From the NCBI RefSeq assembly GCF_013415885.1, contig NZ_CP058910.1, positions 2,046,001-2,110,000 on the forward strand: 64,000 nucleotides of DNA. Direction: 5' to 3'. The position numbers and the translations under genes were made by a program. How positions within the stretch are numbered: position 1 is the first letter of the stretch; each line of letters opens with the position of its first letter. Below are positions 13,404-58,267 of the stretch, piece by piece. The stretch comes from Halosimplex rubrum (lineage in GTDB: Archaea > Halobacteriota > Halobacteria > Halobacteriales > Haloarculaceae). Under the pieces are notes generated by a model. It did not search any database. It saw only the letters and a list, made by a program, of their open reading frames with translations, and was not told the DNA's origin.

Positions 13404-14645
13404 TTAAGCGATCCCTGCTGCGGTCGATCCCGTCGCGACGCCGGTCGCCGTCGAACTCTGGCCGCCGGTCAGGATCGAACCGTACCAGCGGATGAGCGTC
13501 TCGGCGGTCTCGATGTCCGTCTCCCGCGAGACGGTCACCGTCGTACCGTCACGGGTCACGTCGGTCTCGCGGAGCTCGGTCTCCAGGGTCTCGTTCTGGA
13601 TGGCGCCCGCCTGGATGGAGATGAACCCCTGCGCGAGGTCCGTCACGTCCCGGGCGGTGTCCGTGGAGTTCGTCAGGATGCGCGACTCGGTGCCGAGGGC
13701 CTCGCCGTCCTCGGTGATGTAGTAGGTCCCCGAGGTGATGTGGAGGTCGTTGTAGGCCTCGGCGTACGCGGTGACGTTCAGGCCTGTGGACTGGCCCATC
13801 GTCCGGTTGATCTGCGTGACGTTGACGTTCTGGGAGCTCTGGGCGTACCGGAAGTAGCCGTCGCGGGTGTCGTCGAACGCGCGGCGGAGGTCGCCGTCGA
13901 CGGGTTCGGCGTTGCCGGCCTCGACGTCGACGGCGTCGGCGACGGCCTGCTCGGTGCCGAAGACGTACTCGTTCTCGTCGAGGACTGCGACCCACTGGTC
14001 GGGCTCGGGCGGCCCGAAGCTCGTGACGTTGTCTTCCTCCTCCTGCGGCTCGGGCTTGTAGACGGTCACACCGTCGACGGTCGTGTTACGGTACGACCGG
14101 TTGGTGTTCTCCGAGACCGCGTCGACCACGTCGGATTTGTCCCAGTCGGCCTCGACGATGGCGCCCTGGTAGGGCGGCGACGTGAAGTTCGCCTGTCGCT
14201 GGCTGTAGACGATGACCTGCTCGGCCGCGCGCGCGTCGAGCCCGCTCTCGTTTTCGACCTCGTCGAGCGCGCCCGTCAGGTTCGCCGGGATCATCTCGGC
14301 GGGCGAAGTCGTGGAGACCATCTCGCCGTCGGTCTCGTTGGCCATCTCGTCGTCGGTCTCGTTGGCCTCGCCCGGATCCGTGGTGTTGATCGAGCCGGCC
14401 GTGGCGTTGTACCCCGTCGCGTAGAGGCGCTCGGCCGTGTCGGACTCGATGACGCTCGCGTCGAAGACGGCGACGCTGTCGACGCCGTCGGGCACCGGTT
14501 CGAGCAGGGCCGAATCCTGCGAATCCGTGACGCCGTCGAGAGCGCCCATCTGTGCCGCGGCGACGCCGCCGACCGCGAGGAACGCGACGACGACGACCGC
14601 CTTGGCCGCTGTGCTGCTAATCGTGCCTGTCGGTATGGAGGGCAT
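13404..14645 (-). CDS. Secreted, Asn/Thr-rich haloarchaeal protein of unknown function
   Basis: 413-residue protein with an N-terminal hydrophobic segment (about 14-32, KAVVVVAFLAVGGVAAAQ) that fits a signal peptide or anchor. The mature part is acidic and rich in N-x-S/T sequons (for example NTTD, NETD, NRSY, NVTQ), as in surface glycoproteins. No enzymatic motif is recognised; the region around FVFGTEQAV-like YVFGTEQAVADAV resembles surface proteins found in many haloarchaea. It stands alone between the ABC exporter and the divergent ACT operon. Confidence 0.6.
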   Translation of the reverse strand: MPSIPTGTISSTAAKAVVVVAFLAVGGVAAAQMGALDGVTDSQDSALLEPVPDGVDSVAVFDASVIESDTAERLYATGYNATAGSINTTDPGEANETDDEMANETDGEMVSTTSPAEMIPANLTGALDEVENESGLDARAAEQVIVYSQRQANFTSPPYQGAIVEADWDKSDVVDAVSENTNRSYRNTTVDGVTVYKPEPQEEEDNVTSFGPPEPDQWVAVLDENEYVFGTEQAVADAVDVEAGNAEPVDGDLRRAFDDTRDGYFRYAQSSQNVNVTQINRTMGQSTGLNVTAYAEAYNDLHITSGTYYITEDGEALGTESRILTNSTDTARDVTDLAQGFISIQAGAIQNETLETELRETDVTRDGTTVTVSRETDIETAETLIRWYGSILTGGQSSTATGVATGSTAAGIA

Positions 14646-14757: not shown

Positions 14758-14766
14758 TTGATATAG
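14758..14766 (+). promoter_or_regulatory. TATA box of the leader-ORF/ACT/hom operon
   Basis: TTGATATAG is centred 28 nt upstream of the leader ORF start at 14790, so the transcript probably begins at that ATG. Confidence 0.55.
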
Positions 14767-14789
14767 CCGCCCCCTGTGAGTCTCCCCTA

Positions 14790-14831
14790 ATGAGCGCACG
14801 CGAGCGCACCAGGGAGGTGATCGGGCGATGA
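14790..14831 (+). CDS. 13-codon leader ORF coupled to the ACT gene
   Basis: The ORF encodes MSARERTREVIGR and stops with TGA that overlaps the ATG of the ACT gene (ATGA). Its start fits the TATA box for leaderless initiation. Inside it, GGAGGTGATC (14813-14822) is a full-length match to the 3' end of archaeal 16S rRNA, 5 nt before the ACT start. Translation of this peptide probably feeds ribosomes into the ACT gene. Whether the peptide itself matters is unknown. Confidence 0.5.
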   Translation: MSARERTREVIGR

Positions 14832-15361
14832 GCGACTCGACCGACGAGGTACGCGCATACACAGTTCGGCTCGAACTCGTCGACGAGCCGGGCGAGCTCC
14901 TGCGGGCGCTGCACCCGATCGCCGACAACGGCGGGAACCTCCTCTCGATCTTCCACGAACGGGGGAATCTCACCCCGCGGGGCCACATCCCCGTCGAGGT
15001 CGACCTGGAGGCGACCCCCGAGCGCTTCGACGAGATCGTCGACGCGCTCCGCGAGGCCGGCATCAACGTCATCCAGGCCGGCACGCAACACTACAGCGAG
15101 TCGCTGACGATCGTCGTCTCCGGCCACATCGTCGACAGCGACCTCTCACACACCCTCTCGCGCATCCGCGAGACGACCGACGCCACGGTGACCGACCTCT
15201 CGCTGTCGGCACCCGAGGGGACGGAAGACGTGTCGAGCGCGCGCCTGCGGCTGGCCACCGAGGAGGGGGAGGCCGACTCGACGCTGGCGGCCCTGCGGGA
15301 CATCGCCGCGGCGAAGGACCTGCGTCTGGTCGAGCCGCTCACGGTGGGTGATGCGGCGTGA
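14828..15361 (+). CDS. ACT-domain regulator linked to homoserine dehydrogenase
   Basis: 177-residue protein with an N-terminal ACT domain (about 9-80; RLELVDEPGELLRALHPIADNGGNL is its characteristic start, where ligand binds at the Gly-rich turn) and a second ACT-like half. In haloarchaea homoserine dehydrogenase often lacks its own ACT domain, and this separate protein probably senses threonine or another end product. Its stop overlaps the GTG start of hom (GTGA), so the two are translationally coupled. Confidence 0.85.
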   Translation: MSDSTDEVRAYTVRLELVDEPGELLRALHPIADNGGNLLSIFHERGNLTPRGHIPVEVDLEATPERFDEIVDALREAGINVIQAGTQHYSESLTIVVSGHIVDSDLSHTLSRIRETTDATVTDLSLSAPEGTEDVSSARLRLATEEGEADSTLAALRDIAAAKDLRLVEPLTVGDAA

Positions 15362-16314
15362 GACTCGCAGTCCTGGGCGCCGGCGCCGTCGGCGCCTCGG
15401 TCGCGGATCTGGCCGCGGACTACGGCCACACCGTCACCGCGCTGGCCGACTCCTCGTCGGCCGCCGTCGACCCCGAGGGGATCGACGTGGCGACCGCGCT
15501 GGAGTCAAAGCGGACCGACGGCGCCGTCGGGAGCGACGACCCCGAGGCCGCGCTGGACGGCGAGTACGACGTTCTCGTCGAGGCGACGCCGACGACGCTC
15601 GGCGACGCCCAGCCCGGCTTCGGCCACGTCCGAACCGCGCTCGAACGGGACCGACACGTCGTCCTCGCCAACAAGGGACCGGTCGCCGAGCGCTACGCCG
15701 ACGTGCGCGAACTCGAACGCGAGAGCAACGGCGAGGTGCTGTTCGAGGCGACCGTCGGCGGCGCGATGCCGGTCCTCTCGACGATCGCCGACTTCGACTC
15801 CGACCACATCACGGCCGCCCGCGGCGTCCTCAACGGGACCGCGAACTTCATCCTGACGCGGATGGCCGCCGAGGGACTGGACTACGAGCACGTCCTCGCG
15901 GAGGCCCAGGATCTGGGCGTCGCCGAGGCCGACCCCGCCTTCGACGTGGAGGGGACCGACGCCGCGCTGAAGTGCGTCATCGTCGCGAACGTCCTCGCGG
16001 GGAACGGCCGCGAGTACACCCTCGAGGACGCAGCGGTGCAGGGAATCGAGGAGATCCCCGGGAGCGCGCTCGACCTGGCGACCGAGGACGGCCGCACCGT
16101 CCGGCTCATCGGCGAAGTCACGCCGCAGGGCAGGGTGCGCGTCGGCCCGCGGCTCGTCCCCGCCAACGGCACGCTCGCCGTGACGGGCACCGAGAACATC
16201 GTCCAGCTGGAGACCGAGCACGCCGGGCAACTCAACATCTCCGGGCGCGGCGCGGGCGGGCCCGAGACCGCGAGCGCGGTGCTGGCCGACGTGGGACGGC
16301 TGCCCGAGCGATAG
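15358..16314 (+). CDS. hom: Homoserine dehydrogenase
   Basis: 318-residue NAD(P)-dependent enzyme that reduces aspartate semialdehyde to homoserine for threonine, methionine and isoleucine synthesis. The Rossmann loop is GAGAVGASV (residues 7-15); NKGPVA, TVGGAMPVL and GVLNGTANFILTRM are classic motifs, and the catalytic lysine is in DAALK. It starts with GTG and overlaps the ACT gene. No C-terminal ACT domain is present, in keeping with a separate regulatory subunit. Confidence 0.95.
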   Translation: MRLAVLGAGAVGASVADLAADYGHTVTALADSSSAAVDPEGIDVATALESKRTDGAVGSDDPEAALDGEYDVLVEATPTTLGDAQPGFGHVRTALERDRHVVLANKGPVAERYADVRELERESNGEVLFEATVGGAMPVLSTIADFDSDHITAARGVLNGTANFILTRMAAEGLDYEHVLAEAQDLGVAEADPAFDVEGTDAALKCVIVANVLAGNGREYTLEDAAVQGIEEIPGSALDLATEDGRTVRLIGEVTPQGRVRVGPRLVPANGTLAVTGTENIVQLETEHAGQLNISGRGAGGPETASAVLADVGRLPER

Positions 16315-16389: not shown

Positions 16390-17676
16390 ATGAACTCGCG
16401 GATCCCGGGATTCTACGCCCGAGACCGTTCCGAGCGACTGTCGACGGTGGCGAACCGGTGTGACCTCGACGCCGACGCCGTCGACGCGCTCGACGCCGAC
16501 GGCGCGGTCGGCGAGACGGTCGACGGGCTGAGCGAGAACGTCGTCGGCAGCGTCTCCTACCCGTTGAGCGTCGCGACGAACTTCGTTGTCGACGACGAGG
16601 ACGTGCTGGTGCCGATGGCCGTCGAGGAGTCGAGCGTGGTCGCCGCGGCCTCGAAGGGCGCGCTCCTGGCGCGTTCGACTGGAGGGTTCACGACCGATAC
16701 GGACGGGCCGTACATGACCGGTCAGGTTCAGGTCGCGGACGTGGCCGACCCGACCGCCGCACGGCTTCGAATCCTCGAACGCGCCGAGGAGATCGCCGCC
16801 GTCGCCAACGACCAGGGCGTCCTCGTCAGCCACGGCGGCGGGTGCGAGACCGTGACCGCGCGCGTCGTCGACACGCCGGCCGGCGAGATGGTCGTCGTCC
16901 ACCTGCTCGTCGACGTCCGCGACGCGATGGGTGCGAACGCGGTGAACACGATGTGCGAAGCCGTGGCTCCGGTCGTGTCCGACGCGGCCGGCGGCCGCGT
17001 CTCGTTGCGGGTCCTGTCGAACCTGGCCGACTGCCGGCTCGCACGCGCGAGGTGTCGTGTTGATCCCGACGCGCTCGTCGACAGCGGAGACGACCCCGAG
17101 GAATCGAGCGGGATCGGCGGCGTGACCGTCCGCGAGCGCATCGTCGAGGCGTGGGCGTTCGCCGCGGGCGACCCGTACCGGGCGGCCACCCACAACAAGG
17201 GGATCATGAACGCCGTCGACGCGCTCGCGGTCGCGACGTGCAACGACTGGCGTGCGCTCGAAGCGGGCGCACACGCGTATGCCGCACGGGAGGGGTACGG
17301 TCCGCTGACGACTTACGAGGTCGGCGACGACGGGGACCTGATCTGCAGCATCGAACTCCCGGTCCAGGTCGGGACCGTCGGCGGTGCGAGCGCGGTCCAT
17401 CCCGCCGGTCGGGCGGCGATGGATATCCTCGACATCGAGGGGGCCGACGAGTTCGCCCGGGTCGTCGCCGCGCTCGGTCTCGCGGAGAACCTGGCGAGCC
17501 TGCGCGCGCTCGTCGACGAGGGTATCCAGGCCGGCCATATGAAACTCCACGCCGAGAACGTCGCCCGGCAGGCCGGCGCCCCGGCGCGACTGGTCGCGGA
17601 GGTCGCGGCCCGCATGGTCGCCGAGGAGGACGTGCGGGAGAGCCGCGCCCGTGAACTGGTCGCCGAGTTGCAGTGA
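16390..17676 (+). CDS. mvaA: HMG-CoA reductase, class II-like
   Basis: 428-residue enzyme that interconverts HMG-CoA and mevalonate. Catalytic residues are Glu79/80 (VPMAVEES), Lys270 (HNKGIMN), Asp286 (CNDWR) and His383 (QAGHMKLHA). The pattern SENVVG, VEESSVVAAAS, HNKGIMNAVDALAVAT and NDWRALEAGAHAYA follows the class II (bacterial, Pseudomonas mevalonii-type) enzyme rather than class I. The C-terminus is also of class II length. It is a single gene; the biosynthetic class I enzyme, if any, is outside this window. Confidence 0.9.
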   Translation: MNSRIPGFYARDRSERLSTVANRCDLDADAVDALDADGAVGETVDGLSENVVGSVSYPLSVATNFVVDDEDVLVPMAVEESSVVAAASKGALLARSTGGFTTDTDGPYMTGQVQVADVADPTAARLRILERAEEIAAVANDQGVLVSHGGGCETVTARVVDTPAGEMVVVHLLVDVRDAMGANAVNTMCEAVAPVVSDAAGGRVSLRVLSNLADCRLARARCRVDPDALVDSGDDPEESSGIGGVTVRERIVEAWAFAAGDPYRAATHNKGIMNAVDALAVATCNDWRALEAGAHAYAAREGYGPLTTYEVGDDGDLICSIELPVQVGTVGGASAVHPAGRAAMDILDIEGADEFARVVAALGLAENLASLRALVDEGIQAGHMKLHAENVARQAGAPARLVAEVAARMVAEEDVRESRARELVAELQ

Positions 17677-28570: not shown

Positions 28571-29256
28571 GCGGCCACCTCCCGCCGCCGCGCCGCGGCG
28601 ACGAACGAGCGGACCGTCTCCGGGTCCTTCTCGCCGCCGACGCGGCTCCCGTCGCCGTCGACCCGTTCGACGCCCGTCGCCACGTCGACACCGAACGGTC
28701 GAACGGTTTCGACGGCCGCGGCGACGTTCTCGGGGGTGAGTCCGCCGGCGAGGATCACGGGCACGTCCAGGTCGGCGACGACCTCGCGGGTACGCTCCCA
28801 GTCGTGGGTCTCGCCGGTGCCGCCGCCACCCTCGGCGTCGACCGAATCGACCAGCAGGGCGTCCGCGGCGTCGGCGTAGTCGGCGATATCGTCGGCCTCG
28901 GCGTCGACCGCGACGACCAGGTCCTGACTCAGACGGTGGCCGAGCGCGCCGAGTTCGCCCGGCGAGAGCCCGCCGTGGACCTGCACGGCGTCCGGTTCGA
29001 CGGTCGCCGCGAGGTCGACCGCGGCCTCGACGGTCGTCGGCATCGTCACCAGCACACCGGTCACCAGCGGCGGGACGCCAGCGAGGAGGTCGCCAGCGGT
29101 ATCGGCGTCGACCTCCCGGGGGGTGTCGACGGGCACGTCGCTGATGACGCCCACCGCGTCGGCGCCCGCGGCGACGACGGCCTCGCGGTCGGTCTCGCGG
29201 GTGACCCCGCAGACCTTGACGCGGGCGTCCGGGCGGTCGTCGGTGGCGTCGCTCAT
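28567..29256 (-). CDS. trpF: Phosphoribosylanthranilate isomerase
   Basis: 229-residue TIM-barrel enzyme of the tryptophan pathway. The catalytic Cys is in KVCGVTRETD (position about 16), the catalytic Asp is in VDSVDAEGGGGTGETHDW, and the phosphate-binding turn is ILAGGLTPENV. The end GVDVATGVER is typical. It is coupled to trpD upstream and trpE downstream through 4-nt overlaps. Confidence 0.93.
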   Translation of the reverse strand: MSDATDDRPDARVKVCGVTRETDREAVVAAGADAVGVISDVPVDTPREVDADTAGDLLAGVPPLVTGVLVTMPTTVEAAVDLAATVEPDAVQVHGGLSPGELGALGHRLSQDLVVAVDAEADDIADYADAADALLVDSVDAEGGGGTGETHDWERTREVVADLDVPVILAGGLTPENVAAAVETVRPFGVDVATGVERVDGDGSRVGGEKDPETVRSFVAAARRREVAA

Positions 29257-30278
29257 TGGCCCCCGTCGGCGGCGACGCGGCTGGTGACCTCCCGAAGGTC
29301 GTCGAGCTTCGCGGCGGCGTCGCCGGCGTCGATGGCGTCGGCGGCGGCCTCGACGCCGCCCTCCAGCGAGTCGGCCATGCCGGCGACGTAGACGGCCGCG
29401 CCGGCGTTCGCGAGGATGATGTCGCGCTTTGCGCCGGTGACCGTGCCGTCGACGATACCCTGCAGGTCCGCGGCGTTCTCCGCGGGCGTGCCGCCCGAGA
29501 CGGCCTCGATGTCGTGGGTCTCCAGCCCGAGGTCCTCGGGGGTGATCGTGTACTCGGTGACCTCACCGGCTTTCACTTCGGCGACGGCGGTCTCGTCGTG
29601 GATCGTGATCTCGTCCATCCCGGAGCCGTGGACGATCAGGGCGTGGTCGACCGGCATCTCGGCGACCGCGCGGCCGATCAGGCCGACGAGATCCGCGTCG
29701 TAGACGCCCATGACCTGCGCGTCGGCGCCGGCGGGGTTCGTGAGGGGGCCGAGCACGTTGAAGATGGTCCGCATCCCCACCTCGCGGCGCGGGCCGATGA
29801 CGGCCTTCATCGCCGGGTGGAACGCGGGGGCGTGCATGTAGCCGATGCCGGCCTCCTCGACGGTCGCCTCGACGGCCTCGGGGTGGGTGTCCATGTCGAG
29901 GCCGACCTCCTCCAGCACGTCCGAGCTCCCCGACGACGAGGAGACGGAGTAGTTGCCGTGTTTGGCGATCGGGACGCCGGCGCCGGCGGCGACGATGGCG
30001 CTGGTCGTCGAGACGTTGATCGTGTCGTAGTCGTCGCCCCCGGTGCCGCAGGTGTCGACCAGCGGCGCCCGGTCGGGGTCGATGGTTCTGGCGGCCTCGC
30101 GCATCCCCTGGGCGAAGCCGGCGATCTCGGCCTCGGTCTCGCCCTTCGCGCGCAGCCCCGCCAGCAGCGCGCCGATCTGTGCCTCTGTCGCGTCCTCGAA
30201 GACGGCCGTCGCCGCCTCGCGAGCCTCCGCGAGCGTCAGGTCCTCGCCGTCCGTGACGGATTCGATGTATGCTTTCAT
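29253..30278 (-). CDS. trpD: Anthranilate phosphoribosyltransferase
   Basis: 341-residue enzyme that joins anthranilate to PRPP. The PRPP loop is DTCGTGGDDYDTINVST (about 76-92), then KHGNYSVSSSSGSSDVLE, and the metal-binding region DE(I)T in SGMDEITIHDET. It opens the trpDFEG operon, and a palindromic operator candidate lies in its promoter. Confidence 0.95.
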   Translation of the reverse strand: MKAYIESVTDGEDLTLAEAREAATAVFEDATEAQIGALLAGLRAKGETEAEIAGFAQGMREAARTIDPDRAPLVDTCGTGGDDYDTINVSTTSAIVAAGAGVPIAKHGNYSVSSSSGSSDVLEEVGLDMDTHPEAVEATVEEAGIGYMHAPAFHPAMKAVIGPRREVGMRTIFNVLGPLTNPAGADAQVMGVYDADLVGLIGRAVAEMPVDHALIVHGSGMDEITIHDETAVAEVKAGEVTEYTITPEDLGLETHDIEAVSGGTPAENAADLQGIVDGTVTGAKRDIILANAGAAVYVAGMADSLEGGVEAAADAIDAGDAAAKLDDLREVTSRVAADGGQ

Positions 30279-57840: not shown

Positions 57841-58267
57841 CTGCCCACCGTTCCACTCCCCCCTCAATAAGCGCGCGGACCTTGGTATCAAAAATGAAAA
57901 TAGATTGGGGGTCGAAGTCGACGTTCGGCCGTACGTTCGGCCGTACGTCCGGCTCCGGTGGCCGTTTCGGGCTAGGAGTGCGGACGTCGGGGACCCGCGG
58001 CGGGCGGTCCGTGACGGTCGCGACGGCCGCCGCGGTCGATAGTAACCGTTTAGTGTCGCAAGCGGGACTCTCCGGTGGGAACGCACGACCGCAAATCTGA
58101 CTCGCTGTGCGCTTGCACAGCTCGGGATTGCGGCCGTGTTCGCGCCGATCGCCGCTTCGCCTCGCGGAGCGCGCGGCGCACACACGCACCGTGCGGGCCG
58201 GGACCGCGGTCGATGTCCGGTCGCCGCCCGCCGACCAGCGGTCAGTCGCGTTCCAACAATCAGACAC
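57841..58267. other. Gene-free stretch upstream of rps15
   Basis: No gene is seen between the pilin-like gene and rps15. A 12-bp tandem duplication ACGTTCGGCCGT occurs at 57921-57944, next to a short AT-rich run (57885-57905). The sequence before rps15 has low-complexity CG-rich character. Regulation of the rps15 operon may lie here. Confidence 0.5.
57921..57944 (+). repeat. Tandem 12-bp repeat
   Basis: ACGTTCGGCCGT is present twice in direct succession, with a partial third unit (ACGTCCGG) after it. It may be an operator pair or a short slippage event. Confidence 0.8.

Follow-up and report, generated by a model that had tools for sequence, protein, structure and literature searches.

Several published systems combine elements of the arrangement that is the subject of this work. 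Leaderless mRNAs make up 72% of the protein-coding transcripts of Haloferax volcanii (PMC4983044), and hom and ilvB are not among the genes in that report's table of upstream ORFs (uORFs), which covers 5'-UTRs of 150-250 nt only. The same archaeon translates certain gene pairs in a coupled manner, including an apparent ACT/hom junction where coupling is strict; such pairs overlap by ATGA or GTGA and carry a Shine-Dalgarno (SD) sequence within the 3' portion of the first ORF, and the SD is reported to be inactive for de novo initiation at 5'-UTRs and to contribute variably to reinitiation (Huber et al. 2019, PMC6728339). In bacteria, the uPPE2-PPE2 locus of M. tuberculosis employs a translated leader ORF as a landing pad, with the gene itself translated mainly by termination-reinitiation at an AUGA (PMC11260477). 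Likewise, in E. coli mRNAs with a 5'-terminal AUG, a leaderless uORF is read in a different frame from the SD-led gene; among these, rhaB has an 8-aa 5'-terminal uORF with an ATGA overlap, and breaking the uORF leaves the gene unaffected (PMC4965119). Finally, the idea of a short ORF that delivers a ribosome has been named in a review (PMC12548453).

The locus described here lies in a 64,000-nucleotide stretch of the Halosimplex rubrum genome (the window), ahead of genes for an ACT-domain protein and a homoserine dehydrogenase, hom. It shares with the coupled Haloferax pairs both the stop/start overlap and the position of the SD. In those pairs both partners are ordinary genes, whereas the upstream ORF of the present locus spans only 13 codons, has no other obvious role and starts at the predicted 5' end. 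The M. tuberculosis case differs in being bacterial, in its B12 riboswitch control and in its larger uORF (6.3 kDa tagged). The E. coli set comprises thirteen selected genes in which the effects of the upstream AUG (uAUG) were mixed or nil, whereas the haloarchaeal uORF is conserved across an order, among organisms in which the SD by itself reportedly has no activity.

The mini-ORF and Shine-Dalgarno sequence of the window

The initial annotation of the window proposed a 13-codon ORF at 14790 with an SD ahead of the ACT and hom genes and a stop overlapping the ACT start, and both proposals are confirmed from the window sequence (Table 1). The mini-ORF reads ATG AGC GCA CGC GAG CGC ACC AGG GAG GTG ATC GGG CGA TGA, with the stop at 14829-14831, and is out of frame with ACT. 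There is no ATG, GTG or TTG in the ACT frame 5' of 14828 before an in-frame stop is reached, so 14828 is the only plausible ACT start.

Table 1. Coordinates of the features at the ACT-hom locus of the window.
Feature	Position	Strand	Remarks
Gene upstream of the mini-ORF	13404-14645	-	opposite strand to the mini-ORF
GATATA, TATA-like element of the presumed promoter	14760-14765	+	CTTATA or TTTTAC equally distant in most orthologues
Predicted transcription start	14788-14790	+	at or just before the mini-ORF ATG; placed by TATA spacing only
Mini-ORF (uORF)	14790-14831	+	13 sense codons; peptide MSARERTREVIGR*
Shine-Dalgarno GGAGGTGATC inside the mini-ORF	14813-14822	+	complementary to own 16S 3' end
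ATGA	14828-14831	+	mini-ORF stop sharing bases with the ACT start
ACT-domain protein gene	14828-15361	+	177 aa; ORF and family matches
SD-like GGTGGGTGATG ahead of hom	15343-15353	+	-14.6 kcal/mol
GTGA	15358-15361	+	hom start overlapping the ACT stop
hom, homoserine dehydrogenase	15358-16314	+	318 aa; ORF and family match

The first base of GATATA precedes the mini-ORF ATG by 30 nt. This element is a weaker TATA box than the CTTATA found at equal spacing in most Haloarculaceae orthologues, and the 30-nt distance, constant in orthologues, is the one basis on which the mini-ORF AUG is predicted to be 5'-terminal. Since the gene upstream of the promoter is on the opposite strand, no upstream gene on the same strand is placed to supply ribosomes. 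The leader RNA of the window matches no family in Rfam 15 and has no unusual predicted fold (z = -0.58). The ACT protein has its closest match among named records in Halosimplex pelagicum (98%); its family matches are weak, the best being ACT domains from the regulatory end of threonine ammonia-lyases, below the cut-off. Downstream of hom lies a gene for HMG-CoA reductase (16390-17676, plus strand), which scores above the cut-off of the NCBIfam "degradative" (NAD) model.

The SD was described in the initial annotation as a complete match to the 16S 3' end, and this description is borne out over 10 nt: both rRNA operons of the same genome have a 16S gene with the 3' end ...GGCTGGATCACCTCCT, so the match is real. 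The sequence GGAGGTGATC is present in a single exact copy in the 64 kb, counting both strands, with 14 copies when up to one mismatch is allowed, against 5.96 expected. Its predicted duplex with the 16S 3' end has an energy of -20.7 kcal/mol. Of 350 predicted genes sampled from this genome, 2 are equally strong.

The layout across haloarchaea

Orthologues were collected in two ways: 79 loci of named records were obtained by protein search, and 387 of 392 genomes searched across the order proved to contain ACT; from the latter, 100 upstream stretches representing 99 genomes, mostly one per genus, were sampled. The layout was scored as present where a TATA-like hexamer is followed about 30 nt on by an ATG whose ORF stops at offset 0, 1, 4 or 8 from an in-frame ACT start. 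By this rule it is present in 78 of the 79 named loci; the sole exception, Halorussus litoreus (L057), has ACT itself starting 31 nt after the TATA box and is thus directly leaderless. In the order-wide sample the layout was found in 76 of the 100 loci, in addition to the window, and 23 have no uORF under the rule. The remaining locus, L115, was set aside, as its uORF is spurious: the ATG sits within the TATA box, and the locus is directly leaderless.

The loci outside the rule fall into several kinds. Together with L057 and L115, five more are directly leaderless (L143, L148, L155, L158, L160), of which L143 and L148 were called by eye, the script having given their TATA no score. An offset-4 uORF with a weaker TATA is present at L099, L127 and L156, with another recognised by eye at L136; the uORF stops at offset 11 in L116, L117, L120, L125 and L168, and 1 nt ahead of a start in L181. 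No recognisable arrangement was found upstream of ACT in L114, L131, L167 or L170-L174.

Close relatives preserve the layout in detail. All six Halosimplex loci (the window, L003-L006 and L082) retain start, frame, SD and stop; the changes are substitutions only (T to S in L005, R to E in L004 and L082), and no frame-breaking indels occur in the mini-ORF. Loss of the ORF in close relatives that keep the SD, which would have spoken against the initial annotation, is not seen, since the five other Halosimplex loci keep both. Further afield, uORF length ranges from 7 to 70 codons while the overlap with ACT is retained. An EV(I/S)GR C-terminus is shared by several Haloarculaceae uORFs, and this motif is simply the SD read in one frame; the Natrialbaceae uORFs read the SD in another frame, and both the sequence and the length of the uORF differ between families. 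These differences argue against a small protein acting in trans, a role for which nothing in the comparison was found to speak and which we consider exceedingly improbable. One genome holds two tandem copies of the ACT gene about 2.3 kb apart (L091 and L092), each with its own mini-ORF, encoding MNPIESGVSVR* and MSVSDPGVSVR*, respectively.

A stricter test, with a tighter TATA pattern and the promoter nearest the gene, was applied to 101 loci (the window plus 100). Among these, 22 have no TATA-positioned ATG, 4 have one in the open ACT frame and 75 have a uORF. The stops of these 75 are placed at offset 0, 4 or 8 in 71 loci, at 11 in 3 and at -1 in 1. Randomising the frame predicts 30.3 at offset 0, 4 or 8 and shuffling the interior predicts 24.4, for loci that are related rather than independent, and none of 200,000 simulations reached 71, with TATA patterns and accepted offsets that were fixed after a first look at the data. 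The ACT start was taken as the candidate closest to the uORF stop, and the simulations used the same choice. All 47 loci in which NTGA closes the frame have A at base +4, and 41 of them have C as the codon-2 wobble base. In the 25 loci where the stop must instead be ATGNNTGA or ATGNNTAA, the wobble base is T 21 times, compared with 35 of 214 background ATG genes. With T at codon 2 where the stop needs it, the ACT coding sequence bends to preserve the uORF stop.

The frequency of the layout in the genome was estimated from 464 kb (the window and 20 further stretches), in which a simple codon-usage gene finder predicted 356 genes. A strict scan found the layout at 4 of these, one of them inside another gene. 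Outside genes, uORFs of 5-22 codons ending at offset 4 precede 3 of the 356 genes, and the same scan at each of five control offsets yielded 0 of 356. They belong to ACT, to a purU-like gene for formyltetrahydrofolate deformylase and to a putative methyltransferase gene, the last named by inspection of the sequence only. Of 28 Haloarculaceae loci of the purU-like gene, which also has an ACT domain (L303-L330), 24 show a coupled mini-ORF under a permissive TATA rule. The layout is therefore rare within the genome and yet recurrent, and the description of it as uncommon in the initial annotation stands for the genome at large (3 of 356 genes), but not for the ACT locus, where it is the rule, nor for the purU-like gene, where it recurs. 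Upstream of trpD (12 loci) and thrC (22 loci), the search yielded no coupled uORF; this negative is a soft one, as several of these loci have no resolved start codon or a possibly misjudged strand.

These observations bear on the possibility that the mini-ORF is a chance ORF, that is, a transcription-start ATG that happens to stay open. As A follows ATG in 85 of 214 background ATG-start genes, ATGA is common and roughly one frame in three could end there. Against this, 71 stops out of 75 are observed where 24-30 are expected, the control offsets are empty and the six Halosimplex loci are free of frame-breaking indels, such that a chance origin is very unlikely. The layout at ACT is not due to chance, and the mini-ORF observation is confirmed as real and above chance.

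A few further features are of note. The purU-like gene of the same genome is at L186, around 9957 (minus strand), and MTVRSHTRSSASRRWSP* is one example of the mini-ORFs coupled to purU-like genes. The window's trpD (29253-30278, minus strand) has a CTTAAG box upstream, and reading by eye saw no coupled uORF there. Of the 25 leuA-like loci viewed, several of which likewise have no resolved start codon or a possibly misjudged strand, L252, L259 and L268 carry short ORFs of this sort (MSDYTDTEDRGSRLTAAGREILRHV* and its relatives) some 30 nt past AT-rich boxes. Finally, an S15-Halobacteria ribosomal protein leader (RF03143) is present in the window at 58074-58139 (plus strand; 72.2 bits, above the gathering score).

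Proposed ribosome hand-over to ACT and hom

Strong SD sequences and uORFs go together at ACT. The median SD duplex energy in the 77 uORF loci is -13.6 kcal/mol, with 75 of the 77 at -8.4 or stronger, and in background genes it is -6.3 kcal/mol (94 of 350 at -8.4 or stronger). In the seven directly leaderless ACT loci the energies range from -3.2 to -7.2 kcal/mol and none reaches -8.4. A strong SD and a uORF thus co-occur, and directly leaderless ACT genes lack such an SD.

Leaderless initiation on the mini-ORF, followed by SD-assisted termination-reinitiation at ACT and hom, is the best explanation of this pattern, and on the comparison of sequences we hold it to be probable. The transcript would most likely start at the mini-ORF ATG, where a ribosome could initiate without a leader, read the 13 codons and end at the TGA that overlaps the ACT start. 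The just-passed GGAGGTGATC would retain the small subunit (or the 70S ribosome) through the 16S 3' end, and the ribosome would then presumably reinitiate at the overlapping ACT ATG; hand-over from ACT to hom would proceed likewise through the GTGA overlap. The mini-ORF would serve as a ribosome landing pad for an SD-led operon. Proposed in the initial annotation, this scheme is well supported by the finding that frame, stop position and SD are kept throughout the order. It is also in line with the published strict coupling of the apparent ACT/hom junction in Haloferax (PMC6728339). It is considered the likeliest reading because the evidence published for Haloferax and for M. tuberculosis combines with the idea named in the review.

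A different course of events could start from the SD itself. Near-perfect, with a predicted duplex energy of -20.7 kcal/mol, it might attract ribosomes directly to ACT by de novo initiation on a leader of 38 nt, leaving the mini-ORF incidental or mildly inhibitory. An SD in Haloferax, that of gvpH (GGAGGUCA), was reported to enhance translation (PMC7531240), which leaves room for SD-only initiation, and the 5'-uAUG of E. coli rhaB can be removed without effect (PMC4965119). On this account, however, the uORF frame and stop should not have been kept so far above expectation (71 of 75), nor should ACT codon 2 carry T where the uORF stop depends on it. Furthermore, a strong SD accompanies 75 of 77 loci with a uORF and 0 of 7 without, and the SD is reported to be non-functional at Haloferax 5'-UTRs (PMC6728339). 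De novo recruitment is accordingly judged unlikely, and leaderless initiation with reinitiation remains the preferred reading.

Threonine, isoleucine and valine codons in longer leaders

Homoserine, the product of the hom operon, is the precursor of threonine and isoleucine, and leaders before ACT-hom differ in their content of the corresponding codons. The ACT uORF has 24-70 codons in Halorubrum and many other loci of the Haloferacaceae type. Across 27 loci, threonine accounts for 158 of 1045 residues in the long uORFs (15.1%), compared with 61 (5.8%) and 76 (7.3%) in the other frames (frame permutation, p < 1e-5), a richness that was noticed before it was tested, with the other frames of the same DNA as the control. 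The uORF frame has the highest threonine content in 21 of the 27 loci (not in L086, L108, L134, L137, L149 and L152), and the residues most enriched relative to the other frames are isoleucine (3.0-fold) and threonine (2.3-fold). The test left out the long uORF of L091, where a shorter inner ORF is likelier, and L168, where the stop is at offset 11. Among 40 unique long uORFs, many from Halorubrum, ACA makes up 60 of 259 threonine codons, as against 252 of 7201 in a background from another genus. Runs such as PITIITATG (L063), PMTIITSTG (L142) and PITIIGSTTT (L164) resemble the E. coli thr leader.

In these long-leader lineages, the uORF may additionally sense the supply of threonine and isoleucine through its codons. 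The long uORFs before ACT-hom resemble an attenuator of the E. coli thrL type in their many threonine and isoleucine codons. The window copy differs from one in lacking this richness and in having a uORF stop that overlaps the gene start. Short uORFs show no threonine enrichment (49 loci; 8.9% versus 8.2 and 6.4% in the other frames, p = 0.14). As the enrichment is limited to long uORFs, codon sensing may be real in the lineages that have them and is unsupported in the window.

It might still be supposed that the window mini-ORF is itself a threonine/isoleucine attenuator, with slow decoding of either residue altering ACT-hom expression, given that its long orthologues are rich in both residues, that the operon leads to both amino acids and that its peptide contains one threonine and one isoleucine. 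These two residues stand among 13 codons with no run of cognate codons, however; L005 has serine in place of the threonine, several short uORFs have no threonine at all (e.g., L007, L036, L048, L069), short uORFs as a class are not threonine-enriched and the leader RNA fold is not unusual. We regard an attenuator at this copy as quite unlikely. The translational control of threonine-branch genes suggested by the initial annotation is consequently not borne out for the window, whose mini-ORF looks like a reduced, non-sensing form.

Structure in the long hom leaders is a lead only. A candidate hairpin is 78.1% paired, a value that none of 500 shuffles matched, in 16 rows of alignment A2 that were hand-picked for the hairpin; RNAalifold on two alignments of long hom leaders returned no such helix, and the fold z-scores of single long leaders are weak and of both signs. 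No Rfam match at or near the gathering score was found in 11 long-leader loci. The candidate, CGACACGGAGC...GCTCCCTGTCG followed by ACAACA, was first spotted by eye and lies inside the long uORF, with some compensating changes, in loci such as L110, L130, L133, L138, L141 and L152.

A further leader lies upstream of ilvB (acetolactate synthase), where Ile/Val codons occur in 12 of the first 12 genomes and in 34 of 40 haloarchaeal loci overall. The set includes L202-L213 and L279-L302, with L275-L278 and L294 negative; L298 was dropped, the match being inside another gene. The leader encodes (I/R/G)IVG(A/V) and similar sequences directly at a stem GTAGGGG...CCCC, and its peptide ends in ...IIVGA*, IIVGV* or RIVGAx*. 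Across the 34 loci the stops are TAG (27), TGA (4) or TAA (3) and fall 12 or 15 nt (once 21) after the conserved core begins. Of 33 loci scored, 32 have an in-frame ATG ahead of the core (L202 does not), and the copy of the same genome as the window is at L204:1278-1321. Eight of the first 12 loci also have a second uORF, 15-37 codons long, whose end overlaps the ilvB start by 4 or 8 nt. A search of 12 loci found no matching Rfam family, and the stem is too invariant for covariation to be judged. By its sequence, the ilvB leader looks like an Ile/Val leader-peptide attenuator.

Taken together, the individual mechanisms are known from Haloferax or from bacteria, and what is new is their combination: a leaderless mini-ORF as the partner of SD-assisted reinitiation, order-wide at one operon. 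Strong SD motifs in haloarchaeal leaders thereby gain a role, in that the leaderless mini-ORF would bring the ribosome and the SD would keep it. Since the arrangement is deeply conserved at a single metabolic operon, ACT-hom is a ready test case.

It is tempting to suggest, with somewhat less than even confidence, that leaderless leader peptides of haloarchaea are codon-based amino-acid sensors that act via reinitiation, rather than or besides transcription termination, and so would be the archaeal equivalent of attenuation by ribosomes. The leaders would be Thr/Ile-rich before ACT-hom in long-leader lineages and Ile/Val-rich before ilvB, and the short leader of the window would be a stripped-down form that keeps the ribosome hand-over only. 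Threonine regulation may be a testable extension, one that the window alone does not support. To our knowledge, leader-peptide control of biosynthetic operons of this kind is known mainly from bacteria, and no published description of an archaeal equivalent was found among the titles and abstract openings of the open-licence literature, which is weak evidence of absence. If the Thr/Ile- and Ile/Val-rich leaders do sense amino acids, archaea would have leader-peptide control of their biosynthetic operons.
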